Assembly: GCF_003671715.1 (NCBI RefSeq)
Contig: NZ_RAIF01000012.1
Location: 873,370 to 911,358 of the forward strand
DNA: 37,989 nucleotides
From: Streptomyces sp. E2N166
GTDB taxonomy: Bacteria; Actinomycetota; Actinomycetes; Streptomycetales; Streptomycetaceae
Reading direction: 5' to 3'
Notes under the pieces: generated by a model
Seen by the model: the letters and a program-made list of their open reading frames with translations, nothing else
Told to the model about the DNA's origin: nothing
Database searches by the model: none
In this document: positions 12,799-31,439 of the stretch, in pieces
Layout of the letters: each line of letters starts with the position of its first letter
How positions within the stretch are numbered: position 1 is the first letter of the stretch
Program-made: the position numbers and the translations under genes

Positions 12799-13467
12799 CT
12801 AGCCGACCCCCGGCGTCACCAGCCCCGACTCGTAGCCCACGATGACCAGCTGCGCCCGGTCCCGCGCGCCCAGCTTTCCCATGATGCGGCTGACGTGGGT
12901 CTTCGCGGTCAGTGGGCTCAGTCCCAGGGAGTCGGCGATCTCCGTGTTGTTGAGGCCGCGGGCGACCAGGGCGAGCACCTGGCGCTCCCGGTCCGAGAGA
13001 CAGCCGGGGCCGCCGCCGCCCGCCACCGGCGTCGAGGGGCTGCGCAGGAAGCGCTCGATCAGCCGTGCCGTCGGCCCGGGCGACAGGAGCGCGTCGCCCG
13101 CCGTCACCGTGCGGATGGCGTCGAGGAGTTCGGCGGGCCTGGTGTCCTTGACCAGGAATCCGGAGGCGCCCGCGCGGAGCGCTTCCACGATGTTCTCGTC
13201 GGTGTCATAGGTGGTCAGCACCAGCACCCTCACGCCCGCGAGGTCCTCGTCGGCCGCGATGAGCCGGGTCGCCTCGATGCCGTCCAGGTCGGGCATGCGG
13301 ACGTCCATGACGACGAGGTCGGCGCGTTCGGTACGGGCCAGTTCCACGGCCTGACGGCCGGTGCCCGCCTCGCCGACCACCTCCATGTCGGGGGCCGACG
13401 CGACGAGCAGGGCGAACGCGGCACGGACGAGGTTCTGGTCGTCCGCGAGCAGCACTCGTATGGTCAT
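12799..13467 (-). CDS. NarL/FixJ-family response regulator
   Basis: Predicted 222 aa. Receiver domain residues 1-120 with phosphoacceptor Asp55 (VVMDVRMPD), acidic pair DD at 9-10, switch Thr in VLTTYD and Lys in FLVKDTRP. A glycine-rich linker (VAGGGGPG) leads to a LuxR-type helix-turn-helix, LSDRERQVLALVARGLNNTEIADSLGLSPLTAKTHVSRIM. The start ATG overlaps the histidine kinase stop (ATGA), so the two are produced together. Likely targets are the dyads upstream of the MMPL gene. Confidence 0.93.
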   Translation of the reverse strand: MTIRVLLADDQNLVRAAFALLVASAPDMEVVGEAGTGRQAVELARTERADLVVMDVRMPDLDGIEATRLIAADEDLAGVRVLVLTTYDTDENIVEALRAGASGFLVKDTRPAELLDAIRTVTAGDALLSPGPTARLIERFLRSPSTPVAGGGGPGCLSDRERQVLALVARGLNNTEIADSLGLSPLTAKTHVSRIMGKLGARDRAQLVIVGYESGLVTPGVG

Positions 13468-14744
13468 CCGTCTCTCTCCGGGGTCACGGTCGTCAGGGGC
13501 GTGGCCGGTGCCGAGGGTGCCGACGGCGCCGCGGGTGCCGGCAGCAGGGCCGTCACCTCGAAGCCGCCGACGCCCCCGTCCCGCGGCCCGGCGTCGAGTG
13601 TGCCACCCACGCTGCGGGCCCTCTCCCGCATGCCGACGAGACCGAAGCCGGGGGGGCCGTCGGGGTCGGGCCCGGTGCCGTCGTCGGTCACGGCCAGGCG
13701 CAGGACACCCCGCTCGGCGTGCACCTCGACGCGCACGGACGGCTCCGGCCCCGCGTGCCGTACGGCGTTGGTCAGCGCCTCCTGCACGATGCGGTAGGCG
13801 GCGGCGCCGACCGCGGGCGGCACGTCGCCGGCGCGTACCGACAGGTCCACCCGCGCTCCGGCGAGCCGGGCGGCCTCGGCCAGGTCGGGCAGGCCGTGCA
13901 GTCCGGGCAGAGGGCCTCGGGCGTCGGGCGCGTCCTGTTCCCGGAGTACCTCCAGCGTGGTCCGCAGTTCGCCGCGTGCGCTCCGGCAGGTCTCGGCGAT
14001 GTCGTCGAGGGCCTTGGCGACGGCGGCCCGGTCCAGGCGCTCGGGGTCGGCGGTCAGGACGTGGGCGGCGACCGAGGTCTGCACGCCGATGAGGGTGATG
14101 CTGTGCGCGAGCAGGTCGTGCAGGTCCCGGGCGACGCGCAGGCGCTCCTCGGCGACACGGCGCCGGGCCTCCTCCTCGCGGGTGCGTTCGGCGCGCTCGG
14201 CGCGTTCGACGATGGAGGCGACGTACTGGCGGTAGTAGCGGACGTCGACGCCGGCGAAGAGGATGGCGATCACCCAGCCGGAGATGCGGATCAGCTCGAC
14301 GGCCTGGTGGGTGTTGACGGTGAGCATGATGCTCACCGACACGGTGAGGACCGCGACGCCGGTCAGGATCGTGCGCAGCGGGCGGCCGGTGACGGCCAGC
14401 GTGTAGAGCGCCACGTAGGAGGCGGGACCGGCCGCGGCGTGGTTGTTGTCCATCGCGTGGTACGGCCCGACGAGGGCCACCACCGCCGCGAGCACCAGCA
14501 GCGGATGGCGGCGCCGCCACACGATCGGGACGTGCGCCGCGACCAGCAGCGCCCAGCCCGACGCGTCCGGGCGGCGGCCCTCGTCGGTGAGGAGGGCCAG
14601 GCAGGCGGCGCCGGCGAGGAGGACCGCGGCGAGCACGGCGTCGTTGCGGGTGCCGTGCGGGGCGGTGAGCGGATCGCGGTTGATGGCGGCCATGATCCGC
14701 TCACCGAGGCGGGGCCAGGACGACGCCGGAGTGGTTGCCTGCAC
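13464..14744 (-). CDS. Membrane sensor histidine kinase (HisKA_3 type)
   Basis: Predicted 426 aa from GTG 14744 (AGGAT upstream). A GTG at 14819 would add 25 residues but would place the 14767-14792 hairpin inside the gene and overlap the MMPL stop. Four or five membrane segments cover residues about 35-170, with short loops and no large extracellular domain, so the signal is probably sensed in the membrane. The DHp motif RVARDLHDLLAHS puts the phosphorylated His at about residue 209. The ATPase domain has EALTNAVRHAG and DDGTGPDP. The C-terminus is Ala/Pro-rich. It pairs with the overlapping NarL-type regulator. Confidence 0.92.
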   Translation of the reverse strand: MQATTPASSWPRLGERIMAAINRDPLTAPHGTRNDAVLAAVLLAGAACLALLTDEGRRPDASGWALLVAAHVPIVWRRRHPLLVLAAVVALVGPYHAMDNNHAAAGPASYVALYTLAVTGRPLRTILTGVAVLTVSVSIMLTVNTHQAVELIRISGWVIAILFAGVDVRYYRQYVASIVERAERAERTREEEARRRVAEERLRVARDLHDLLAHSITLIGVQTSVAAHVLTADPERLDRAAVAKALDDIAETCRSARGELRTTLEVLREQDAPDARGPLPGLHGLPDLAEAARLAGARVDLSVRAGDVPPAVGAAAYRIVQEALTNAVRHAGPEPSVRVEVHAERGVLRLAVTDDGTGPDPDGPPGFGLVGMRERARSVGGTLDAGPRDGGVGGFEVTALLPAPAAPSAPSAPATPLTTVTPERDG

Positions 14745-14766
14745 GCGCCCATCCTGCGCGACGGAC

Positions 14767-14792
14767 GCGCCCCTCCGGGAGGGGAGGGGCGC
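14767..14792. terminator. Hairpin between MMPL and histidine kinase genes
   Basis: GCGCCCCTCC (14767-14776) and GGAGGGGCGC (14783-14792) form a perfect 10-bp stem with a 6-base loop. It follows the MMPL stop by 20 bases and precedes the kinase GTG at 14744. It may act as a partial terminator or RNA stabiliser that sets exporter and sensor levels apart. Confidence 0.5.
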
Positions 14793-14811
14793 ACTCCGGT
14801 CGTCGGGCACC

Positions 14812-16890
14812 TCAGACACCGACGGGCTCCCGCTCGCCGGCCGGCGCCGGCTTCTCGGGCGCCCGGGACAGCCGGCCCGGCCACCACACCCGGCGGCGCA
14901 GGGCGACGCTCGCGCTGGTGACGAGGTAGGTGCGGACGAGGAAGGTGTCGAGGAGGACGCCGACGGCGATGACGAAGCCCAGCTCGACGAGTTGCACCAT
15001 CGGCATGTTGGTGAGCACCGCGAAGGTGGCCGCGAGGACGAGTCCGGCGGAGGCGATGACGCCGCCGGTGGTGCGCAGCGCGGTGAGCGCGGCCTGCGTG
15101 GGTTCGGCGCCGTGCAGGGACTCCTCGCGCATGCGGTGCATGAGGAAGATGCCGTAGTCGACGCCCAGTGCCACCAGGAAGACGAAGGACAGCAGGCCCA
15201 GGCCCGGGTCGGTGCCCTCGAAGCCGAAGAGGGGTCCGAAGACGAGTCCGCCGATGCCCAGGGCCGCGCCCCACACGGCGACGACGGCGGCGACCAGGAT
15301 CAGCGGCGCGACCAGCGACCGCAGGAGGCCCACGAGGATCAGCAGGACCGACAGCAGCACGATCGGTACGACGATGGCGGTGTCCCGGGCGCTGGTTTCC
15401 TCCAGGTCGATCTGCTGGGCGCTGGGACCGCCGACGTAGGAGCCGTCGAGTGTGTCGCGCAGGGACTCGATGGTGGCGGTCTCGGCCGCCGACTGGGGCT
15501 GGGCTGCGGCGAGTACGGTCAGTTCGGTCCAGCCGTCACCGCTGCGGCCCTTCTCGGCACTCGTGACGCCGCGGGTGCCGCGGGCCTCGGCGAGGGCGGC
15601 GTCGGCCCGGTCGGTGGGTGCGATGACGGTGATGGGCTGGGTGCCGCGCTCCGGGTAGGCGGCGGCGAGGGTCTCCATCGCGGCGATCGCCTCGGGCCTG
15701 GTGGTGAAGGAGTCCTCCTGCTTGAGGGAGCCGGGCAGGTTGAACGACCCGAGCGCCAGCGCGCCCAGCAGGAGGGCACCTCCGACGAGGACGGCTCGCG
15801 GGCGGCGTTCGGCTGAGCCGCCCATCGCGGTGAACAGCGAGCGGCGAGCCTTGGGCGTGCTGCCGTAGCGGGGTACGAGCGGCCAGAAGACACGGCGGCC
15901 GAGCAGGACCAGGAGTGCGGGCAGCAGGGTCAGCATGGCGGCCAGCGCGCACAGCACGCCGACGGTGCCGAGCGGGCCCATGCCCCGGCTGGAGTTGAGG
16001 TCGGCGGCGAGCAGGCACAGCAGCCCGGCGGCGACCGTGCCGGAGGAGGCGAGCACGGCGGGGCCGCAGCCGCGCAGGGCGGCGAGCATGGCGTCGTGGG
16101 GTCGTTCGATACGGCGCAGTTCCTCGCGGTAGCGGGAGATCAGCAGCAGTGCGTAGTCGGTGCCGACGCCGAAGACGAGGATGGTCATGATGCCGGAGCT
16201 CTGGCCGGAGACCGAGGTGCCGAACCCCTGGTTGAGGCCGTAGGCGACGCCCATGGACAGGTAGTCGGCGATTCCGGCGACGGCGAGCGGGACGAGCCAC
16301 AGGAACGGGCTGCGGTAGATGAGGATCAGGAGAAGGGCTACGACGGCGGCGGTGGTGTAGAGCAGCGGGCCGCCCAGGGAGTTGTAGACCTCGGCCGCAT
16401 CGGTGGCGAGCGCGCCCGCGCCGCCGACCTCGACGCTCAGCCCGTCGCCGCCCCGCGCGACGTCCCGTACGGCGTTGACCAGTTCGTCGCGGGCCTCCTC
16501 GTCCTGGCCGGGCTCGGTGCTGGCCACCGGGTACATGAGGGTGGTGCCGTCCTTGGACGGGATGCCGGCCGGGCGGTCGGTCAGCCGGTGCGCGCCCGCC
16601 ACCTCCGCGATCTGGTCGGTGGCGGTGGCCCTGTCGGCCGCGGTCAGTCCGGCGTCGCGGTGGTAGACGACGACCATCTCGGTGGCCTCGCCGCCCGGCA
16701 GCCGGTCCTGGATCTTCGCGACCTGGGTCGAGTCGGCGCTCGCCGGCAGGTAGTCGACGGCGCGGTCGCGCTGCACGTCCGACAGTTTCGACGCGAACGG
16801 TGAGGCGATGGCCAGTACGGCGATCCACAGCCCGAGCACCAGCCAGGGCACGGCCCGCCGTCGCCCCCCACTTGTCCTTGCGGCCCCCAT
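14812..16890 (-). CDS. MMPL/RND-family exporter
   Basis: Predicted 692 aa from the ATG of MGAARTSGGRRR, preceded by GGAGGGAGG. It has the duplicated MMPL layout: one membrane helix (WLVLGLWIAVLAIASPFASKL), a periplasmic-side domain of about 150 residues, five helices, then a second single helix, domain and five helices. GTDYALLLISRYREE and GVDYGIFLMHRMREE are the paired signatures that carry the proton-relay aspartates. Actinobacterial MMPL proteins export lipids, siderophores or antimicrobial compounds by proton motive force. It is the first gene of an MMPL-kinase-regulator unit, an arrangement in which the regulator usually responds to envelope stress and controls the exporter. Confidence 0.92.
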   Translation of the reverse strand: MGAARTSGGRRRAVPWLVLGLWIAVLAIASPFASKLSDVQRDRAVDYLPASADSTQVAKIQDRLPGGEATEMVVVYHRDAGLTAADRATATDQIAEVAGAHRLTDRPAGIPSKDGTTLMYPVASTEPGQDEEARDELVNAVRDVARGGDGLSVEVGGAGALATDAAEVYNSLGGPLLYTTAAVVALLLILIYRSPFLWLVPLAVAGIADYLSMGVAYGLNQGFGTSVSGQSSGIMTILVFGVGTDYALLLISRYREELRRIERPHDAMLAALRGCGPAVLASSGTVAAGLLCLLAADLNSSRGMGPLGTVGVLCALAAMLTLLPALLVLLGRRVFWPLVPRYGSTPKARRSLFTAMGGSAERRPRAVLVGGALLLGALALGSFNLPGSLKQEDSFTTRPEAIAAMETLAAAYPERGTQPITVIAPTDRADAALAEARGTRGVTSAEKGRSGDGWTELTVLAAAQPQSAAETATIESLRDTLDGSYVGGPSAQQIDLEETSARDTAIVVPIVLLSVLLILVGLLRSLVAPLILVAAVVAVWGAALGIGGLVFGPLFGFEGTDPGLGLLSFVFLVALGVDYGIFLMHRMREESLHGAEPTQAALTALRTTGGVIASAGLVLAATFAVLTNMPMVQLVELGFVIAVGVLLDTFLVRTYLVTSASVALRRRVWWPGRLSRAPEKPAPAGEREPVGV

Positions 16891-16910
16891 CTGACGGGCC
16901 TCCCTCCGGT

Positions 16911-16938
16911 GGAAGTCTGGGTAGGTCTCCAGACTTCC
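16911..16938. promoter_or_regulatory. Hairpin next to the MMPL ribosome-binding site
   Basis: GGAAGTCTGG (16911-16920) and CCAGACTTCC (16929-16938) are perfect 10-bp arms with an 8-base loop. On the transcript the hairpin ends about three bases before the GGAGGGAGG ribosome site. It is either an operator for the response regulator or an RNA structure affecting translation. Confidence 0.5.
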
Positions 16939-17010
16939 GGCGGAGGGCCGCCGATACGTCGGACGCGAGGGCGAGTTGGCGGCTACTGCCCGGGGTGACA
17001 CGGTGCCGTC

Positions 17011-17030
17011 GTTACTCCCCGGGGAGTAAC
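17011..17030. promoter_or_regulatory. Perfect 20-bp palindrome upstream of the MMPL operon
   Basis: GTTACTCCCCGGGGAGTAAC is a fully symmetrical 20-mer, 121-140 bases upstream of the MMPL ATG and 13 bases past the stop of the gene at 17044. A dyad of this length without a spacer suits a dimeric regulator such as the NarL-type protein encoded in the operon. Confidence 0.5.
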
Positions 17031-17043
17031 AGGGGACCGGCGG

Positions 17044-18162
17044 TCAGGCCCGGTCGACCATCCAGTTGCCGTCCTCCTCCGCGTCGACCCGCACCTCCAG
17101 CTCCCGCAGGCCCATGCCCGCGTCCCAGAGTTCCCGGAAGCGCTTCAGCCGGTCCCGTACGTAGTCCTGGCGCGCGGTGAGCCGGGTCCGGACGTTGACG
17201 TCGCGCAGGTCCTGCTCGATCTCGAAGGACACCTCCTCGTCGTAGAGGATGAAGTCGTTGGTGGTGCCGCGCTGGAGGTGCGGGGGCAGTTCGGGCAGGA
17301 CCGCCGCGCGGACGTCGATGCGCCGCAGCTCCTGCTCCTCGCACAGCCGCAGCAGCCGGTCGTCCAGCTCGCGGGCGCTCTCCAGCAGGAACAGCCGGCG
17401 CACCGACACGCCCTGCTCGTCGATCGCCGCCTGCTGGGCGTCGAGGTAGCGGCCGGCGGGCTCGCTGTTCCAGAACTCCCGGTCGACGGAGGTGCTGGTG
17501 GCGCAGATGGACTGCTCGGCGGCGCGGGTGAGGGTGAGCATCCAGTCGTGGTTCTCGCCGGGGCACTCGGCGCTCTGGTTGGTGAGGTCGGCCATGTGGC
17601 CCACCACCCGCGCCATCTCCAGGTGGACGAAGGTGTGCAGGATCGAGGGTTCCGGCAGCAGGACGTCGGCGAAGCCCTTGGCCAGGTCGGGCACGCTGTC
17701 GATGCGGGCGCGGTCCAGCTGGGGGTAGGGCTCGGAGGGCCGGTGGTTCACCTGGGTGACGTGGGTCTCGACCAGCTGTTTCACGTCCTCGGTGTGCCGG
17801 GTCAGGCCGGTCTTCAGCTCGTCGTCGTACCGGTTCAGGCCCTCTCGTACGGCGGCGGTGTTCTCGGCGAGGGCGCTCTCCACCCGGCGGGTGTGCTCCT
17901 CCAGACGGATGTGTCCCGGCCGTGGGGCCAGGCCGAGGACGTACTGGACCAGCACCGCGGCGCCGGCGCAGAGCACCGCGGCCCCGAACTGCCGCAGCGT
18001 GCCGTCCTCGGGGCTCAGCAGTGCGACGACGCTCCAGAAGAGGGCACCGACGACCAGGGCGACCAGCAGCATGCGCGCCCATGGGGACTCCCCCCTCATC
18101 GCGTCGGCCGGGCCCGGTGCGCGGGCCGTGTCGTCGGGCTGGGGTGACTGTGCCGTGCTCAT
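17044..18162 (-). CDS. Membrane-anchored protein of unknown function, last gene of the SCO2520-2525-like operon
   Basis: Predicted 372 aa, start behind GGGGGAG. Two membrane helices lie at residues about 29-49 and 58-78, joined by a short loop, with both ends inside. A helical, probably coiled stretch follows (EEHTRRVESALAENTAAVREGLNRYDDELKTGLTRHTEDVKQLVETHV). The C-terminal 200 residues form a globular domain with ICATSTSVDREFWNSEPAGRYL, VSVRRLFLLES and NDFILYDEEVSFEIE. This pattern recalls catalytically dead phospholipase D-like or DUF6879-type domains, but I see no HKD motif. It probably anchors the system to the membrane. It is separated by 73 bases from the gene before it. Confidence 0.85.
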   Translation of the reverse strand: MSTAQSPQPDDTARAPGPADAMRGESPWARMLLVALVVGALFWSVVALLSPEDGTLRQFGAAVLCAGAAVLVQYVLGLAPRPGHIRLEEHTRRVESALAENTAAVREGLNRYDDELKTGLTRHTEDVKQLVETHVTQVNHRPSEPYPQLDRARIDSVPDLAKGFADVLLPEPSILHTFVHLEMARVVGHMADLTNQSAECPGENHDWMLTLTRAAEQSICATSTSVDREFWNSEPAGRYLDAQQAAIDEQGVSVRRLFLLESARELDDRLLRLCEEQELRRIDVRAAVLPELPPHLQRGTTNDFILYDEEVSFEIEQDLRDVNVRTRLTARQDYVRDRLKRFRELWDAGMGLRELEVRVDAEEDGNWMVDRA

Positions 18163-18235
18163 CTCGCTTCTCCCCCCGTTGGGATACGCGTCGGATCGGG
18201 ATGCGGGGATGTGCGTGGGAGGTGCCGGCGCCCGG

Positions 18236-19216
18236 TCAGGGCACCGATTCCACCTCCCGGTGGGGCGCGGGAACGGCCTGGAGGGTGAGCTGGTCGCGGA
18301 TGCGCTGCACCAGGGCCTGCCACTGCCGGCTGAAGCCGGGCCGCTCCTCCAGCGGGTCCCACAGCGGAGCCAGTTCCCTGGGCACCCTGGCCCGGGGCAT
18401 CCACAGGTGCAGCAGGTGGTCGACGGCGGGACGCAGCGCCCTGACGACGGCGGTGGCGTCCTGCGCGGCCGAGCCGCCGAGGCGGATGCCGTCGAGCATG
18501 CGGACGACGGTGGTGAGCAGCCAGTCGTGCAGGGCGAGGTCGTCGCAGAGTGCGGCGAGGTCGGCGCCGGTGGTGCCGTCGGGCACGCGCAGGCGCACGG
18601 TGCGCAGTTCGTCCTCGGCGAGGGTGAACCGTTCGATGGACGGGCCGTCGCCCGGGTCCGCGGGCAGGGCCACCCAGCGCAGCCGGGTGGGCCGGGACCT
18701 GAAGGGCGGTCGCTGGTCGAGCAGGGCGTGGCGCAGCAGCCGGGTGAGCAGTCCGTCGGCGATCAGCCCGACGTCGAGGTCGCCGTGGCGCCCGCCGCCG
18801 AGCACGCCCTGCGCGACGGCCTCGTTCGGCAGCTTGCCGAGGGGTTCGACCACGCCGGGGCGTACCAGGTACTCGCCCCACGGCCGCCGCTGGTCGGGCC
18901 CGGTGGCGGGGAGCCGGAAGTGGGCGGAGGTCTGCAGGACGCGCCCCTCGGTGAGCGCGGCGTGCGCGGTGACGGTACCGACCGCGCGGATCCGGGCGCC
19001 GTTGGCGCTGGGCAGCGGGCAGTCGACGCCGGTGAGGGTGTCGGGGGAACGCGCGTAGAGGCCCGGGCGCTCGGAGAGCAGGACGCGTTCGTCGGCGCGC
19101 AGGGCGAGGAGTTGGGCGGCGGAGCGGATGTCGAGGGCCTGCCGGGCGGGCAGCAGGCAGGTGCGGACCTCGCCGCAGGCGAGTACGGCGCGCGGTGTGC
19201 TCTCCCGCGGCAGCAT
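18236..19216 (-). CDS. SCO2521-family protein, function unknown
   Basis: Predicted 326 aa. It begins two bases after the stop of the previous gene (TGAC-ATG), so translation is coupled. It has no signal or membrane segment. The N-terminal half is beta-rich, with ERVLLSERPGLYARSPDTLTGVDCPLPSANGARIRAVGTVTAHAALTEGRVLQTSAHFRL; the C-terminal half is helical and leucine-rich, ending with RPAVDHLLHLWMPRARVPRELAPLWDPLEERPGFSRQWQALVQRIRDQL. As far as I recall, annotation pipelines call this SCO2521 family. No catalytic motif is evident. Confidence 0.85.
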   Translation of the reverse strand: MLPRESTPRAVLACGEVRTCLLPARQALDIRSAAQLLALRADERVLLSERPGLYARSPDTLTGVDCPLPSANGARIRAVGTVTAHAALTEGRVLQTSAHFRLPATGPDQRRPWGEYLVRPGVVEPLGKLPNEAVAQGVLGGGRHGDLDVGLIADGLLTRLLRHALLDQRPPFRSRPTRLRWVALPADPGDGPSIERFTLAEDELRTVRLRVPDGTTGADLAALCDDLALHDWLLTTVVRMLDGIRLGGSAAQDATAVVRALRPAVDHLLHLWMPRARVPRELAPLWDPLEERPGFSRQWQALVQRIRDQLTLQAVPAPHREVESVP

Positions 19217-19217
19217 G

Positions 19218-20183
19218 TCAGGGCCCCGAGTAGTAGACGTAGGAGACGCGGTCGGCGACCGAGTCGGGGACGGCCGTGCGCTCCCGTCCGGAGCGTTCGG
19301 CGACCTGCCCCAGTGCGCCGGGGTCCACCTCGATCTGGTCGAGGATCACGCGGACGGCGTGCTCGACGGGGAGGAAGCGGGTGGGCAGGACCGAGCAGGT
19401 CCGGTAGGCGGCGAAGGGGTCGGCGTGGGCGTTGAGTCGCAGCAGGGAGGGCAGTTCGTCCCAGGAGTCGGGGAAGCCGGTGCCGGTGTGCGGCTGGGGC
19501 ACGAGGACGGCCTCGCCCTCGTTGCGCAGCAGTCCGAGGCGGGCGAGCTGCCACACGGCGGCGAGGAAGGGGCAGGACCAGGTGCGGTGCCCGTCGGCGT
19601 CGTCGCTCCACAGCTCGACGTCGAGGAAGACGGAGTGGCGGCGGGCGGCGGTCTCCCGGGGCGGCTGCCAGGCGGCGGCGCGCTTCATGGCCTGCGGGGC
19701 GCGGGCGACCGGGCTGCGTTCGCCGTTGGCCAGCCAGCCGGTCTGCGCGGCGGGCGGGCGCAGGCCGTAGCTGCCGGGCGGCGGCGACTCGACGATGCGG
19801 CCGGCCACCGCCTCGGCGACGGGCACCTTGCCGGTGGTGGCGCAGCCGGACTCGCGGGCCAGGTAGTCGACGCTCAGCCCGGCCCGCTCGGCCTCCGCGA
19901 GGAGCATGGGGACGACTTCGGCGGGGGTGGAGAAGCGGGTGAAGTAGTCGTCGACGAGGAAGCAGGTGCTGATCCGGGCGCGTCTGCCGCCGGCCCGGGC
20001 GGTGGCGGCGGTGCGCGCCGCGTCGGCCCAGGGGCGTACTTCGGTGAAGTGCCGGCGCAGGCGCTCGGGACCGGCCTCGAAGTCCTCCATGTAGAGGTGG
20101 CCCAGCTCCAGGGAGAGGTGGGCCAGCGGCACCGACTGGGTGCGCGGCTCGGCGGCGGTCTCCCGGAACACCGCGTCCGTCAT
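19218..20183 (-). CDS. SCO2522-family protein, function unknown
   Basis: Predicted 321 aa from the ATG that overlaps the stop of the P-loop gene (ATGA), with GGGGGCGG upstream. Early motif LAHLSLELGHLYMEDFEAGPERLRRHF, then RISTCFLVDDYFTRFSTPAEVVPMLLAEAERAGLSVDYLARESGCATTG. The acidic VDDYF pair and the ARESGC segment are the parts most likely to be functional. Later comes RTWSCPFLAAVWQLARLGLLR. It is probably a soluble cytoplasmic protein. Matches what I remember as the SCO2522 family. No known fold is certain. Confidence 0.85.
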   Translation of the reverse strand: MTDAVFRETAAEPRTQSVPLAHLSLELGHLYMEDFEAGPERLRRHFTEVRPWADAARTAATARAGGRRARISTCFLVDDYFTRFSTPAEVVPMLLAEAERAGLSVDYLARESGCATTGKVPVAEAVAGRIVESPPPGSYGLRPPAAQTGWLANGERSPVARAPQAMKRAAAWQPPRETAARRHSVFLDVELWSDDADGHRTWSCPFLAAVWQLARLGLLRNEGEAVLVPQPHTGTGFPDSWDELPSLLRLNAHADPFAAYRTCSVLPTRFLPVEHAVRVILDQIEVDPGALGQVAERSGRERTAVPDSVADRVSYVYYSGP

Positions 20184-21097
20184 GGCCGCCCCCAGTGCGA
20201 GTCGTCCGTCAGGCGCCGGGCGATCTCCTCCAGCGCTTCCAGGGTCTCCTTGTTGGCGATCTGGGTGGAGAGCACGTCCTCTTCGGTGATCAGCTGCTCG
20301 CGCCACTGGAGTATGGGTTCCAGCGGTACGACGCCGAGGACGACGCTGTCGCCGATGCGGTGCTCGGCGGCTAGCCGGCGCAACGCCTCGTCGCAGGCCT
20401 GCATCCAGGCGGCCTGGGCGGGCGAGCCCTGGGACCACAGCGGCGACTCGGGGTCGGGCACGGCGGCCCGCACGAAGCGGACGGCGGCCTGGAGCGCCTC
20501 CTTGTCGTGGCCGCGTTCGACGCCGCCGCCGATGATGCCGTGGTCGGCGTGGACGAGTCCGGAGGCGGCGATGACGTGCTGCCGGGTCCAGCGGTGGAAG
20601 ACCAGCCAGCGGAAGGGGACGTTGCGCATCCGGGGGTGGGCGGTGGCCGCGAGGACCATGTCGACGGCGTAGCTGCGGCCGGCGCTGAGGTCGACGACGG
20701 TGACGTCGAACTCGCCGTTGAGCCGCAGCAGCAGGTCGATGCACCGCTCCAGGGTCTCCTCGCCGGTGGCGAACTCGCCGCCGCCCGCGTCACCGGGGAG
20801 CAGGACGAGGCGGCCGGACTGGTTCGGGCGGGCGCGCAGCAGGGGGTGCTCGGTCTGCCGCCAGACGTCGATCCTGGCCGGTTCGGCGACCTCGCCCTCC
20901 AGGTAGGAGTGGAGGCCGCGTTCCTCGGTGCCGCGCATCGCGCCGGGCACGTCGAAGACGGCGGCGGCGGTGGGCGAGCCGAAGTCGAAGTCCACGTACG
21001 CCACGTGGTCGCCGGTGAGGGCGCGCTGGTACGCCAGGTTGGCGCTGGTCACCGAGCGCCCCGTGCCTCCTTTGTCGGAGGCGGCGAAGACGAGCAC
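20180..21097 (-). CDS. SCO2523-family variant P-loop ATPase (MinD/ParA-like)
   Basis: Predicted 305 aa. GTG 21097 is chosen because AGGAGG lies seven bases before it; GTG 21103 is in frame but only one base from that ribosome site. The N-terminus VLVFAASDKGGTGRSVTSANLAY is a deviant Walker A motif (KGGxGKS class) in which the invariant second lysine is arginine (residue 14). YVDFDFGSPTAAAVFD and VTVVDLSAGRS match the A' and Walker B strands. The MinD/ParA superfamily binds ATP, dimerises and often positions or loads partners at membranes. The Lys to Arg change may alter hydrolysis. Coupled at both ends to its neighbours. Confidence 0.88.
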   Translation of the reverse strand: MLVFAASDKGGTGRSVTSANLAYQRALTGDHVAYVDFDFGSPTAAAVFDVPGAMRGTEERGLHSYLEGEVAEPARIDVWRQTEHPLLRARPNQSGRLVLLPGDAGGGEFATGEETLERCIDLLLRLNGEFDVTVVDLSAGRSYAVDMVLAATAHPRMRNVPFRWLVFHRWTRQHVIAASGLVHADHGIIGGGVERGHDKEALQAAVRFVRAAVPDPESPLWSQGSPAQAAWMQACDEALRRLAAEHRIGDSVVLGVVPLEPILQWREQLITEEDVLSTQIANKETLEALEEIARRLTDDSHWGRP

Positions 21098-21099
21098 GC

Positions 21100-22944
21100 T
21101 CACACCTCCTGGGCGGCGGCGCCCCTGGCCTGGGCCAGGGTGTCGAGTTCCTGGAGCACGGGCAGGGCCAGGGCGAAGGCGGTGGCGGGCCGGTCGTCGA
21201 CGAGGCCGCGGGCGTGGTCGAGGCGGCTCTCGATGCTGCGCATGGCGCGGGCTCTGCTGCCGTCGGCGGCCGCGGAGGCCTCCAGCTGCTCCTTGCCGAA
21301 CAGGTGGGTGGCCTCGCTGAGCAGTTCCCTGGCCAGCTCGGCGAGTTCGGGACTGCGGATGGGCTGCTGCTCGTACAGGTTGCGGGCGGCGACGAGGCAT
21401 TCGGTGACGCGCTCGGTGATGCTCCAGGACATGCGCAGTCCGACGTCGCGCGCGTCGGGGTAGACGGCCCGGACGTTGTCCCAGAGGCCCGCGCCGTCCT
21501 CGTCGTCGATCCGCCGGGTCCACAGGTGCTCGAAGGACTGCTCGGCGAGGCGCAGCAGCCGGTCCTGTGCGCCGATGTTCCGGGATAGTTCGGCGAGTTG
21601 GATGATCCGCTTGAGGAGCTGGGCCGAGAAGTCGGTCATCCGCCACAGGAGGAGCCCGCCGGAGCGCTCGGACCCGGCGAGCGGCATGGTGACGCCGGGG
21701 TTGTGCAGCCGGATGGTGGGGTCGTCCTTGGTCATCCGGCTGGTGACCCGGCCGCGGTCGGCGAGGCGCTCCATGATCGCGACGGTGCGGGTGAGGTCGT
21801 CGTCGGTCGCCTTCCGGCGGACCAGGTCGTGGACGAGGATGGCCGCGACGGTCAGGGAGAAGTACTCGGACTCCAGGCGCAGGCCGGTGGTCTGCCAGGG
21901 CAGGTCCTCCAGGGGCCAGCGTTCGGTGCCGAAGCGGGCGATCGCGGACCAGTACTGCTGGCTGAGCTCCCAGCGCAGGCGCAGTGCCTCGGCGAGTTTC
22001 TGCTGGTCGGCGTCGAGCAGGCCGAGGGTGAGGGTGCGGTCGGAGAAGAGGTCCTGGATACCGTCGAGGGCGACGACGGTGAAGTACACGTAGGGCAGCC
22101 GGTCGGCGATGCCGACGGGCTGGCCGGGGACCGGGACGCTCAGGTCGGTGATCTCCGGGGCGTCCTGGACGACGCCCCAGGCCCAGCCGCACTCGAAGAG
22201 CTGGCTCTCGTCGCGGATGCCCTCGTCGACCTCGATGCCGCGGCTGAGGCTCTCGATGATGGTGGCGCGCAGCGGGCGTAACTTGCGGGAGAACTGCTGG
22301 AGGACGGCCCGGTCGGACTGTCTGCCCTGTCCGACGACCTGGATCAGCCGCCTGCCCTGCTCGGACTCGGCGTCGAAGACGTTGACGGTGAAGGAGCGCA
22401 GCAGGCTGACCATGGCGGCGGTCAGCCGGGCGTTCGTGGCCTCGCGCAGTTCACCGATCGCCCTGCGCACCTCGGGGCGGGTCGTGGTGCCCTCGTAGAC
22501 CTTGAGGAATCCGAGGGTGGCGAGGCAGAGGGTGACGGACATGGAGTAGGAGTCGACCACGCCCAACTGGCCCTGCTCGTGCGTGATCTGCCCGTCGGGC
22601 TCGGCGGGCCGGAAGTAGTGGCCGCCGGAGAAGGTGGGGCTGTCGTCCGTCCCGGTGTGGGTGCGCATGAACTGGGTCAGCGCGGTGATCAGGTTGGGCG
22701 GGATCTCCAGCCGGCTGCCGATCCGGTCGAGGGCGCGCAGGACGTCACGTTCGGTGGTGTCCGGCTGGTCGAGACGGAAGGCGGGGACCTCGGTGGCCGG
22801 ATAGAGCAGGCACAGCAGGCGTTCGGCGTCCGCGACGCTGCTCAGCCCGTCCGTGTCGCCCCACAGCAGTTTCCCGTCGTCGAACGAATGACGGGCCATG
22901 GCCTGCCAGATCTCCAGCATGTGCTGGCGTGGCTTGATCTGCAT
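21100..22944 (-). CDS. SCO2524-family large helical protein, contains a TTA codon
   Basis: Predicted 614 aa, start behind GAGGGG. Almost all helical by pattern, soluble. Distinct segments are LLWGDTDGLSSVADAERLLCLLYPA near residue 30, GVVDSYSMSVTLCLATLGFLKVYE, WPLEDLPWQTTGLRLESEYFSLTVAAILVHDLV and HLWTRRIDDEDGAGLWDNVRAVYPDAR. The recurring helices with conserved Trp and Asp could form an alpha/alpha toroid, but this is a guess. Leu222 is encoded by TTA (22279-22281), the codon read by the bldA tRNA, so full-length protein should appear mainly in differentiating cultures. Its stop overlaps the P-loop gene region (GTGTGA). Confidence 0.87.
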   Translation of the reverse strand: MQIKPRQHMLEIWQAMARHSFDDGKLLWGDTDGLSSVADAERLLCLLYPATEVPAFRLDQPDTTERDVLRALDRIGSRLEIPPNLITALTQFMRTHTGTDDSPTFSGGHYFRPAEPDGQITHEQGQLGVVDSYSMSVTLCLATLGFLKVYEGTTTRPEVRRAIGELREATNARLTAAMVSLLRSFTVNVFDAESEQGRRLIQVVGQGRQSDRAVLQQFSRKLRPLRATIIESLSRGIEVDEGIRDESQLFECGWAWGVVQDAPEITDLSVPVPGQPVGIADRLPYVYFTVVALDGIQDLFSDRTLTLGLLDADQQKLAEALRLRWELSQQYWSAIARFGTERWPLEDLPWQTTGLRLESEYFSLTVAAILVHDLVRRKATDDDLTRTVAIMERLADRGRVTSRMTKDDPTIRLHNPGVTMPLAGSERSGGLLLWRMTDFSAQLLKRIIQLAELSRNIGAQDRLLRLAEQSFEHLWTRRIDDEDGAGLWDNVRAVYPDARDVGLRMSWSITERVTECLVAARNLYEQQPIRSPELAELARELLSEATHLFGKEQLEASAAADGSRARAMRSIESRLDHARGLVDDRPATAFALALPVLQELDTLAQARGAAAQEV

Positions 22945-22998
22945 CCCCGCACCCCTCGTACAGATCTCGTTGCCCTGTGTTCAGCATGGTCCCCGTTC

Positions 22999-23751
22999 CT
23001 AGGGGGCGGCAACCTCCGAATTGCGCCGCCCCAGGGCGAGGATCATTCCCTCGTGTCCCGGCCGCACCATGTGGTGCAGATCGTGGATCTCCAGCTCTCC
23101 GGTGAACGGTTCCAGGCTCTCCCTGACCCGGCTCTCGTTCACCCGGTAGGCCGGGTAGTCGTGTTCGCCGACGCGGTAGCCGACCGACTCCTTCATGAAC
23201 GCTGCGGCGAACGGCGCGCCTTCGCTGAGCGCGTTCATGAAGCACCGCACTCCCCGCTGGAACTCCTCGGGGCACTCGGACATCGAGTCGGCGACGAAGA
23301 ACATCGTCCCGATGTCCCAGCGCCGGTGTCCGTGCTCAAGGTCGAACAGGTTGCCGCGCTCCACCCGGACGATCTCGCTGACGCGGCTCCTCGGTTCGAC
23401 GGCGGCGTAGGAGGGTGACTCGCGCAGCACCTCCCAGAACGCGTCCCACGCGGTGTCGTACCCGTCCGGGGAGACCTGCTTCTCCAGGTATTCGACGTTC
23501 GGGCGCGCGTATTCCAGCAGCAGCGTCTTCTCGCACCACGGCAGCATGGAGAGCGCGGGGTAGAGATTCGCACCGGCACCGACGTCGACGCCCCGCACCG
23601 AATCCGGAACGCCTCCGGAGAAACAGCGGCTGAAATAGTCACGCATCAACCGGACGATCAGCAGATCGACTTCGAGTGGCACCCGGTAGTTGTTGTCGAC
23701 ATACACCTCTGGATCGAACTTCGACCAAGGTGCGTCGGCATTGCGATCCAT
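22999..23751 (-). CDS. SCO2525-family SAM-dependent methyltransferase (NNMT/PNMT/TEMT-like)
   Basis: Predicted 250 aa from ATG 23751 with AGGGTGA upstream; an in-frame ATG 43 codons earlier exists but that stretch is cysteine-rich and unlike the family. SAM-binding motif I is VRGVDVGAGANLYPALSML, followed by LLLEYARPNVEYLEKQV. Later FFVADSMSECPEEFQRGVRCFMNALSEGAPFAAAFMKESVGYRVGE matches the C-terminal half of nicotinamide/phenylethanolamine N-methyltransferase-type enzymes. These methylate small amines or thiols. It is the first gene of the six-gene operon, 54 bases before the SCO2524-family gene. The acceptor is unknown. Confidence 0.88.
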   Translation of the reverse strand: MDRNADAPWSKFDPEVYVDNNYRVPLEVDLLIVRLMRDYFSRCFSGGVPDSVRGVDVGAGANLYPALSMLPWCEKTLLLEYARPNVEYLEKQVSPDGYDTAWDAFWEVLRESPSYAAVEPRSRVSEIVRVERGNLFDLEHGHRRWDIGTMFFVADSMSECPEEFQRGVRCFMNALSEGAPFAAAFMKESVGYRVGEHDYPAYRVNESRVRESLEPFTGELEIHDLHHMVRPGHEGMILALGRRNSEVAAP

Positions 23752-24027
23752 AGTCACCCTGCCGCGTTCCATTCGATTCCGGACAAGCCCCAGTGTCGTG
23801 CACGGTAAGCCACCAGGACATGTCGAGACAGCCGGGAACACGCCAGTCCTCTTCCGCCGGGCGCACGTCCGGCGCATCGTCGCACACTCGAACTCGCCCT
23901 TGCACGGGGGAAGTTGGAAGCTCACTCTAGCCAGAAGGGGGCACCGGCCGCCACAGGAGGGCTCATTCCTTCGTGAGCGTTTCCGGTGTCGTCGAGTTGA
24001 CGTCCGCACGTCCTGACTGGGGGTGGC
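23752..24027. promoter_or_regulatory. Divergent control region of the methyltransferase operon and GNAT gene
   Basis: These 276 bases hold the promoters of two divergent transcripts. I see a 6-bp inverted repeat CGCCGG/CCGGCG (23855-23860 and 23869-23874) and a purine-rich ribosome site for the GNAT gene, but no clear -35/-10 pair. G+C is lower than in the neighbouring genes. Confidence 0.35.
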
Positions 24028-24570
24028 ATGACCGCCGAACCGCTGGAACGCTCCTTGGACCGCCACGAGCAGCTCACGAGGCCGGATCCGTACCCCGCGA
24101 CACTGCCCCTGGTCCTGCGGACGGCGCGGGAGTCCGACCTGCCCGAACTGCGGCGGCTCGACGAGGAGGTCTTCCAGGAGGTCGCCTATCCCGGCTTCCT
24201 CCTGCGCCAGCTCTTCGACATGTACGAGGAACACTTCCTGGTACTCGACGACGGCACGGGCCGGCTGCGCGGTTACGTACTGGCCGCCACCCGGGCGCTC
24301 GGCGGGGACAGCTGGATACTCGGCCTGTGCGTCACCCAGGACCGGCGCCGGCACGGGCTGGGCCGGGAGCTGATGACGGAGGTCCTGACCCGGTTGCACC
24401 GGGACGGCATAGGGGTGGTCCGCCTCACCGTGGAGCCGGCCAACCTCGCCGCCATCCTGCTCTACCGCTCCCTGGGCTTTCGCCCCGAGGAACCCGACGG
24501 CGGCCTCCGCCCGGACTACTTCGGCCCGGGCATGCACCGTCAGATCATGCGCCTGGACATTGCCGCCTAG
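24028..24570 (+). CDS. GNAT-family N-acetyltransferase
   Basis: Predicted 180 aa, start behind GGGGGTGG. The GNAT fold begins at LVLRTARESDLPELRRLDEEVF; the acetyl-CoA site is WILGLCVTQDRRRHGLGRELMTEVL (Q/RxxGxG/A reads RRRHGLG), followed by LTVEPANLAAILLYRSLGFRPEE, the usual beta5-alpha4 region. The product could acetylate a small molecule or protein N-terminus. It is divergent from the methyltransferase operon and convergent with the TerB-like gene, sharing the palindromic stop CTAG with it. Confidence 0.9.
   Translation: MTAEPLERSLDRHEQLTRPDPYPATLPLVLRTARESDLPELRRLDEEVFQEVAYPGFLLRQLFDMYEEHFLVLDDGTGRLRGYVLAATRALGGDSWILGLCVTQDRRRHGLGRELMTEVLTRLHRDGIGVVRLTVEPANLAAILLYRSLGFRPEEPDGGLRPDYFGPGMHRQIMRLDIAA

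Positions 24571-30359: not shown

Positions 30360-31439
<1,080 letters not shown>

Follow-up and report, generated by a model that had tools for sequence, protein, structure and literature searches.

A conserved four-gene core with optional and exchangeable partners in the SCO2521-SCO2525 cassette of actinomycetes

We analysed a 37,989-nucleotide stretch of the genome of Streptomyces sp. E2N166 (contig NZ_RAIF01000012.1; hereafter the window), in which six minus-strand genes at 17044-23751 belong to a cassette built on four core genes, SCO2524, SCO2523, SCO2522 and SCO2521. These four stay together in every intact copy examined. A divergent GNAT acetyltransferase gene, an S-adenosylmethionine (SAM)-dependent methyltransferase of the SCO2525 family and a membrane partner are linked to the core but are dispensable or exchangeable. 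Five of the six operon genes match NCBIfam equivalogs above the curated cut-off, in families that are named by locus tag and carry no pathway; the sixth, which encodes the membrane protein, has no NCBIfam family above cut-off. The cassette is real, conserved and uncharacterised, has a reported phenotype, and is unlike any system we could name. The SCO2521-2525 families, which do not include the GNAT, membrane and channel-like proteins, are already catalogued. What is new is the distinction of core from accessory genes, the association with a GNAT and a channel-like partner, and the predicted folds of two proteins. An earlier note, made from the sequence of the window alone, had grouped the six genes as one operon, and that set is a real unit, but the note missed the divergent GNAT gene and the division into core and accessory genes.

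Across 118 genomes of the class, the SCO2521 and SCO2522 profiles and SCO2523 matches over cut-off fall in the same ten genomes, which belong to four families and to 6 of the 72 genera in the set. None of the three was found alone among the 118, and independent scatter of the families, the outcome that would count against a single unit, was not seen. Weak SCO2523 matches below cut-off occur in 14 further genomes of this set. SCO2524, searched in the ten core-bearing genomes, is present in all ten, and the SCO2525 methyltransferase is above cut-off in 6/118 genomes, all six core-bearing. Sampled separately, SCO2524 was present in 5 of 296 genomes drawn from the phylum, in 13 of 251 from the Nocardia family, in 40 of 199 Streptomyces genomes (39 above cut-off) and in 42 of 59 Nocardia genomes (41 above cut-off). 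A 22-bit SCO2524 trace in genome G584 was rejected, as its locus (L120) contains no cassette gene. A SCO2525-like methyltransferase was also observed in genome G182, of the same genus as the window (C2:172367-173074; 128.8 bits, cut-off 240); this genome has no SCO2521, SCO2522 or over-cut-off SCO2523 match, and its methyltransferase is possibly a stand-alone relative.

Gene content was counted by tblastn in the best 80 of 266 confirmed loci, a sample biased to close relatives (78 titled Streptomyces, one Kitasatospora and one unclassified actinobacterium). SCO2524 (the query), SCO2523 and SCO2522 were found in all 80 loci, the methyltransferase and SCO2521 in 79 each, the GNAT gene in 78 and the membrane protein in 77. 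All missing genes, both GNAT misses included, belong to loci that are truncated at a contig end (L024, L025, L028, L042 and L049). The outer flanks are more variable, with a leuA-type gene near 51 of the loci and a recO-type gene near 46, some of these misses also being contig ends. The seven-gene block is therefore more conserved than its surroundings, and the frequencies of the two flanking genes indicate a recurrent chromosomal site. Nine further Streptomyces loci were read (L087, L088, L114-L119 and L121). Among these, L115 lacks the membrane protein, L119 has the methyltransferase as a fragment only, and in L117 the methyltransferase is missing and the GNAT gene is relocated to the membrane-protein end. 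One Streptomyces cassette (L061:14765-16665) carries the membrane gene in two tandem copies.

All 13 Nocardia loci read (L086 and L102-L113; 14 copies, two of them in L105) contain SCO2524-2523-2522-2521 together with a GNAT gene, which lies beside 14/14 copies. The methyltransferase and the DUF6879-type membrane protein were found in 0/13 of these loci. The two copies in L105 (8420-16481) are divergent and back to back, each with its own GNAT gene, and a channel-like gene lies between SCO2521 and GNAT in just one of them. Six loci from two further families (L171-L176) have the core in 6/6, the membrane protein in 5/6, the methyltransferase in 3/6 and the GNAT gene in 3/6; in L175 the membrane gene is placed between SCO2523 and SCO2522. 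The methyltransferase, listed earlier as a member of the set, is thus linked to the unit but optional, being absent from the Nocardia loci and over cut-off in 6/10 core-bearing genomes.

The membrane protein of the window has two hydrophobic segments that start near residues 27 and 58 by hydropathy, in agreement with the two-helix protein described before. The dead phospholipase D-like domain attributed to it was not confirmed: HxKxxxxD, the motif of the phospholipase D superfamily, occurs in 1/87 copies, and Pfam instead gives DUF6879 (PF21806) in relatives. This domain is above the Pfam cut-off in L088, L116 and L174 and below it or absent in L087 and L173; the window protein scores 13.6 bits where the cut-off is 23.9, and its C-terminal half resembles a diverged form of the domain.

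The membrane partner is part of the unit in Streptomyces, as had been proposed, but in Nocardia an ion-channel-like protein, which is not in the window, takes its place. The gene lies on the opposite strand between SCO2521 and GNAT and encodes a helical protein whose two membrane segments lie close to its end and whose N-terminal part has weak TPR-like matches; it was found in 10 of the 13 loci by a first filter and in the other three by profile. Ion_trans_2 (PF07885) is the commonest Pfam match (6/26 members, best E 8.8e-4) and one homologue is named 'Ion channel', whereas 20/26 members differ from the two-helix pore channels in having no such match, and the G[YF]GD selectivity filter is present in 0/26. 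Among the 59 Nocardia genomes, the channel-like protein occurs in 38 (a fragment in G842) and SCO2524 in 42 (in G858 a 40-residue trace below cut-off). The channel-like gene is never alone: 38/38 genomes also have SCO2524 on the same contig within 3177 bp (Fisher p 2e-11, uncorrected for relatedness). In G832, G857 and G865 it shares the strand of SCO2524 and lies 100-264 bp upstream of it, on the opposite side of the cassette.

SCO2523 keeps the MinD/ParA signature lysine (KGGxG) and has arginine in place of the usual GK lysine. This arginine, first seen in the window copy, is a property of the family: KGGTGRS is present in 108/109 homologues and the canonical KGG.GK[ST] in 0/109, and SDKGGTGRS is invariant across 35 aligned sequences. 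Judged by sequence, nucleotide binding is plausible and hydrolysis uncertain. The P-loop arginine is a likeness to the KGGVGR-motif variant ATPases (NF047398), against which SCO2523 scores 38.9 bits, below the cut-off of 90. Unlike in those systems, no vWA, MoxR or STAND partner is encoded by the scanned genes of the window, where weak STAND-type matches are limited to a PhoH-like protein at 30360-31439. At another locus of the same genome (L129:8567-10303), a KGGVGR-motif ATPase (183 bits) adjoins a Sll1717-type P-loop ATPase (below cut-off), making this a candidate nucleoside triphosphate (NTP)-dependent conflict locus; none of the SCO2521-2525 families is listed for the nine open reading frames scanned there.

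The predicted model of SCO2522 (321 residues) has the class I aminoacyl-tRNA-synthetase catalytic fold. The 50 structural matches listed are full synthetases, with no cyclodipeptide synthase or MshC among them. The protein shares this predicted fold with ArgRS, CysRS, MetRS and GluRS but lacks HIGH (H.GH in 0/108, E.GH in 107/108), KMSKS (KMSK in 0/108) and detectable sequence similarity: none of 39 members matched a synthetase family in Pfam at E<=10, and hhalign against 5 ArgRS sequences (from 21 loci) gave 13.5, compared with a permuted mean of 15.5. On these negative Pfam and hhalign results we rejected SCO2522 as a class I synthetase by sequence, and we retain the fold similarity only. 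With just 321 residues the protein would have no room for the usual extra synthetase domains. A viral fold library search with SCO2522 returned nothing useful. For SCO2524 (614 amino acids) the model predicts an (alpha/alpha)6 toroid over about residues 1-530, followed by C-terminal helices; the toroid is of the type found in sugar epimerases/isomerases and glycosidases. It shares this predicted fold with N-acylglucosamine and cellobiose 2-epimerases and D-mannose isomerase, at 7-11 % identity, and differs from them by about 80 extra C-terminal residues. Invariant positions number 46/321 in SCO2522 (over 45 sequences) and 67/614 in SCO2524 (over 40 sequences). Profile searches of the PDB with SCO2521, SCO2522 and SCO2524 found nothing significant, and profile comparison of SCO2521 with SCO2522 or SCO2524 found no relation. 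These predictions replace the 'unknown fold' previously given for SCO2522 and specify the 'helical' character of SCO2524.

The six operon genes are closely spaced (Table 1). The ATGA overlap between SCO2523 and SCO2522 is a true overlap, and gaps of 1 nt, 73 nt and 54 nt separate SCO2522 from SCO2521, SCO2521 from the membrane protein gene and the methyltransferase gene from SCO2524, respectively. The earlier description of the location, this overlap and gaps of 1-73 nt was correct. The GTGA overlap that it gave between SCO2524 and SCO2523 exists as letters (GTG at 21103), but GTG at 21097, with a gap of 2 nt to SCO2524, is the better-placed start because it lies 7 nt after AGGAGG and coincides with position 1 of the NCBIfam profile. 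A promoter and terminator scan gave no site, with no sigma-70 consensus in the upstream region shared with the GNAT gene. A perfect 20-bp palindrome, GTTACTCCCCGGGGAGTAAC, is located at 17011-17030, between the membrane protein gene and an MMPL transporter gene, and is a possible operator or bidirectional stem; the start listed for the MMPL open reading frame, at 17001, is perhaps too early. This MMPL-family exporter gene (13464-17001) adjoins a HisKA_3 sensor kinase gene downstream of the cassette. The exporter and kinase lie beside the cassette in 23 and 27 of the 80 loci and are therefore frequent neighbours outside the block.

Table 1. Cassette features in the window.
Feature	Position	Strand	Evidence
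SCO2525-family SAM-dependent methyltransferase (NNMT/PNMT-like), accessory	22999..23751	-	NF040568 312 bits; PF01234 E 8.6e-9
SCO2524 family, core; predicted (alpha/alpha)6 toroid and C-terminal helices	21100..22944	-	NF040567 935 bits
SCO2523 family, core; MinD/ParA-type P-loop protein with KGGTGRS	20180..21097 (alternative start 21103)	-	NF040564 505 bits
SCO2522 family, core; predicted class I aminoacyl-tRNA-synthetase-like fold without HIGH/KMSKS	19218..20183	-	NF040566 484 bits
SCO2521 family, core	18236..19216	-	NF040565 416 bits
Membrane protein, accessory; two N-terminal hydrophobic segments, helical linker (by eye), diverged DUF6879-type C-terminus	17044..18162	-	hydropathy, PF21806 in relatives
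Divergent GNAT acetyltransferase, seventh cassette gene	24028..24570	+	PF00583 E 1.1e-14
Upstream region shared by operon and GNAT gene; presumed divergent promoters	23752..24027	.	gene layout

A transposon mutant from work by Gehring in 2004 is said to have altered colony growth and development, and SCO2525 has been linked to growth and development in the model species S. coelicolor since that year. PMC11472566 lists 'an operon sco2521-sco2526' among the genes changed in hupS-deleted strains only and, citing a 2004 paper by Gehring, describes SCO2525 as necessary for normal growth; our guess from gene order is that SCO2526 is the GNAT gene. SCO2525 is described as HrdB-controlled with a morphogenetic role in PMC6344877, and is mentioned as a SAM-dependent methyltransferase in PMC3017869. 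These SCO2525 reports suggest a role of the cassette in growth and development, and the developmental link raised in the earlier note finds support in the HupS regulon and the morphogenetic role reported in PMC11472566 and PMC6344877, respectively. In the literature searched by locus and family names, no paper naming a function for SCO2521-2524 was found.

We tentatively favour a reading in which the four core proteins form an enzyme complex that builds a small amino-acid-containing molecule, which the GNAT and the methyltransferase finish and the membrane protein senses or lets through. We chose it because two of the four core proteins have predicted enzyme-type folds with many conserved residues, because the optional genes are tailoring-type transferases, and because the exchangeable part is a membrane protein. 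We infer every biochemical step. SCO2522 would handle an amino acid, an adenylate or aminoacyl-tRNA, the SCO2524 toroid would hold a sugar-like or lipid-like substrate, and SCO2523 would bind ATP via its KGGTGRS loop and switch or assemble the complex. The linked acetyltransferase and methyltransferase would then finish the small molecule, and in Streptomyces the product may act through the DUF6879-type membrane protein, in Nocardia through the ion-channel-like one. Mycothiol synthesis offers the nearest logic, in which the synthetase-derived ligase MshC and the GNAT MshD act on an aminosugar. In both, actinobacteria pair a GNAT with a protein of synthetase fold, but the cassette is patchy, adds a toroid, an ATPase and a membrane partner, and has a GNAT that is weakly MshD-like (25.6 bits against a profile cut-off of 163).

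Also possible, and nearly as likely as an enzyme complex, is that the core is a ligand-sensing switch and not a pathway, with SCO2522 and SCO2524 as enzyme folds that have become binding modules, SCO2523 as a nucleotide-dependent assembly switch, and the complex controlling the membrane partner (a pore in Nocardia). The absence of synthetase signature motifs from SCO2522 and of the canonical P-loop lysine from 109/109 SCO2523 copies fits such a switch, as does a membrane partner that is co-inherited and exchangeable, and the toroid fold is shared by non-enzymatic complement C3/C4 domains. The high residue conservation of SCO2522 and SCO2524 and the linked tailoring-type enzymes speak against a switch.

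Direct use of aminoacyl-tRNA or a tRNA-like RNA by SCO2522, with the cassette making a tRNA-dependent peptide or modifying tRNA, is unlikely. Cyclodipeptide synthases have a class I synthetase fold without HIGH or KMSKS and use aminoacyl-tRNA; SCO2522 resembles them in its predicted fold and its lack of ATP-signature motifs, and the methyltransferase and GNAT could tailor such a product. The structural matches speak against this, though not as an exclusion, since those listed are full synthetases with no cyclodipeptide synthase among them, and no RNA-binding domain was recognised in the Pfam scans.

The suggestion that the operon is an anti-phage or inter-strain conflict system, whose nucleotide-dependent core triggers a membrane effector, we consider improbable. 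Its main point in favour is the patchy presence (40/199 Streptomyces genomes). An exchangeable membrane protein would suit it, as would the KGGVGR-type ATPase domain that neighbours a second P-loop ATPase at L129, and PMC7159879 reports inactive MinD/ParA-like domains in NTP-dependent conflict systems. However, PADLOC gave a single partial match for the six operon proteins (profile PDC-M28B against the ATPase, 18.6 bits, 38 residues), SCO2524 has no match on plasmids or phages at E<=1e-5, the chromosomal site is recurrent (leuA-type 51/80, recO-type 46/80), and the literature, with HrdB and HupS control and a growth role (PMC6344877 and PMC11472566), points to growth. Least probable is a MinD/ParA-like assembly that serves positioning in growth or septation, the enzymes being incidental. 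This reading draws on the MinD/ParA type of SCO2523 and the morphogenetic role reported for SCO2525 (PMC6344877), but the ATPase is a single member of a four-gene core that is kept together, and it lacks the canonical P-loop lysine in every copy.

A more speculative and rather doubtful reading is a novel chromosomal signalling system in actinomycetes. A repurposed aminoacyl-tRNA-synthetase fold and a toroid of the sugar-enzyme type, under the gating of a P-loop ATPase with arginine, would produce a messenger, acetylated and in some lineages also methylated. This messenger would control an exchangeable membrane output; in Nocardia the output would be an ion channel whose selectivity filter has been rebuilt. 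With the linked four-gene core, the GNAT, the two predicted folds and the Nocardia partner, the isolated SCO2525 phenotype can be approached as a pathway open to testing. Should the core indeed make a small molecule, this would represent a new class of metabolite or signal in the best-studied antibiotic producers.

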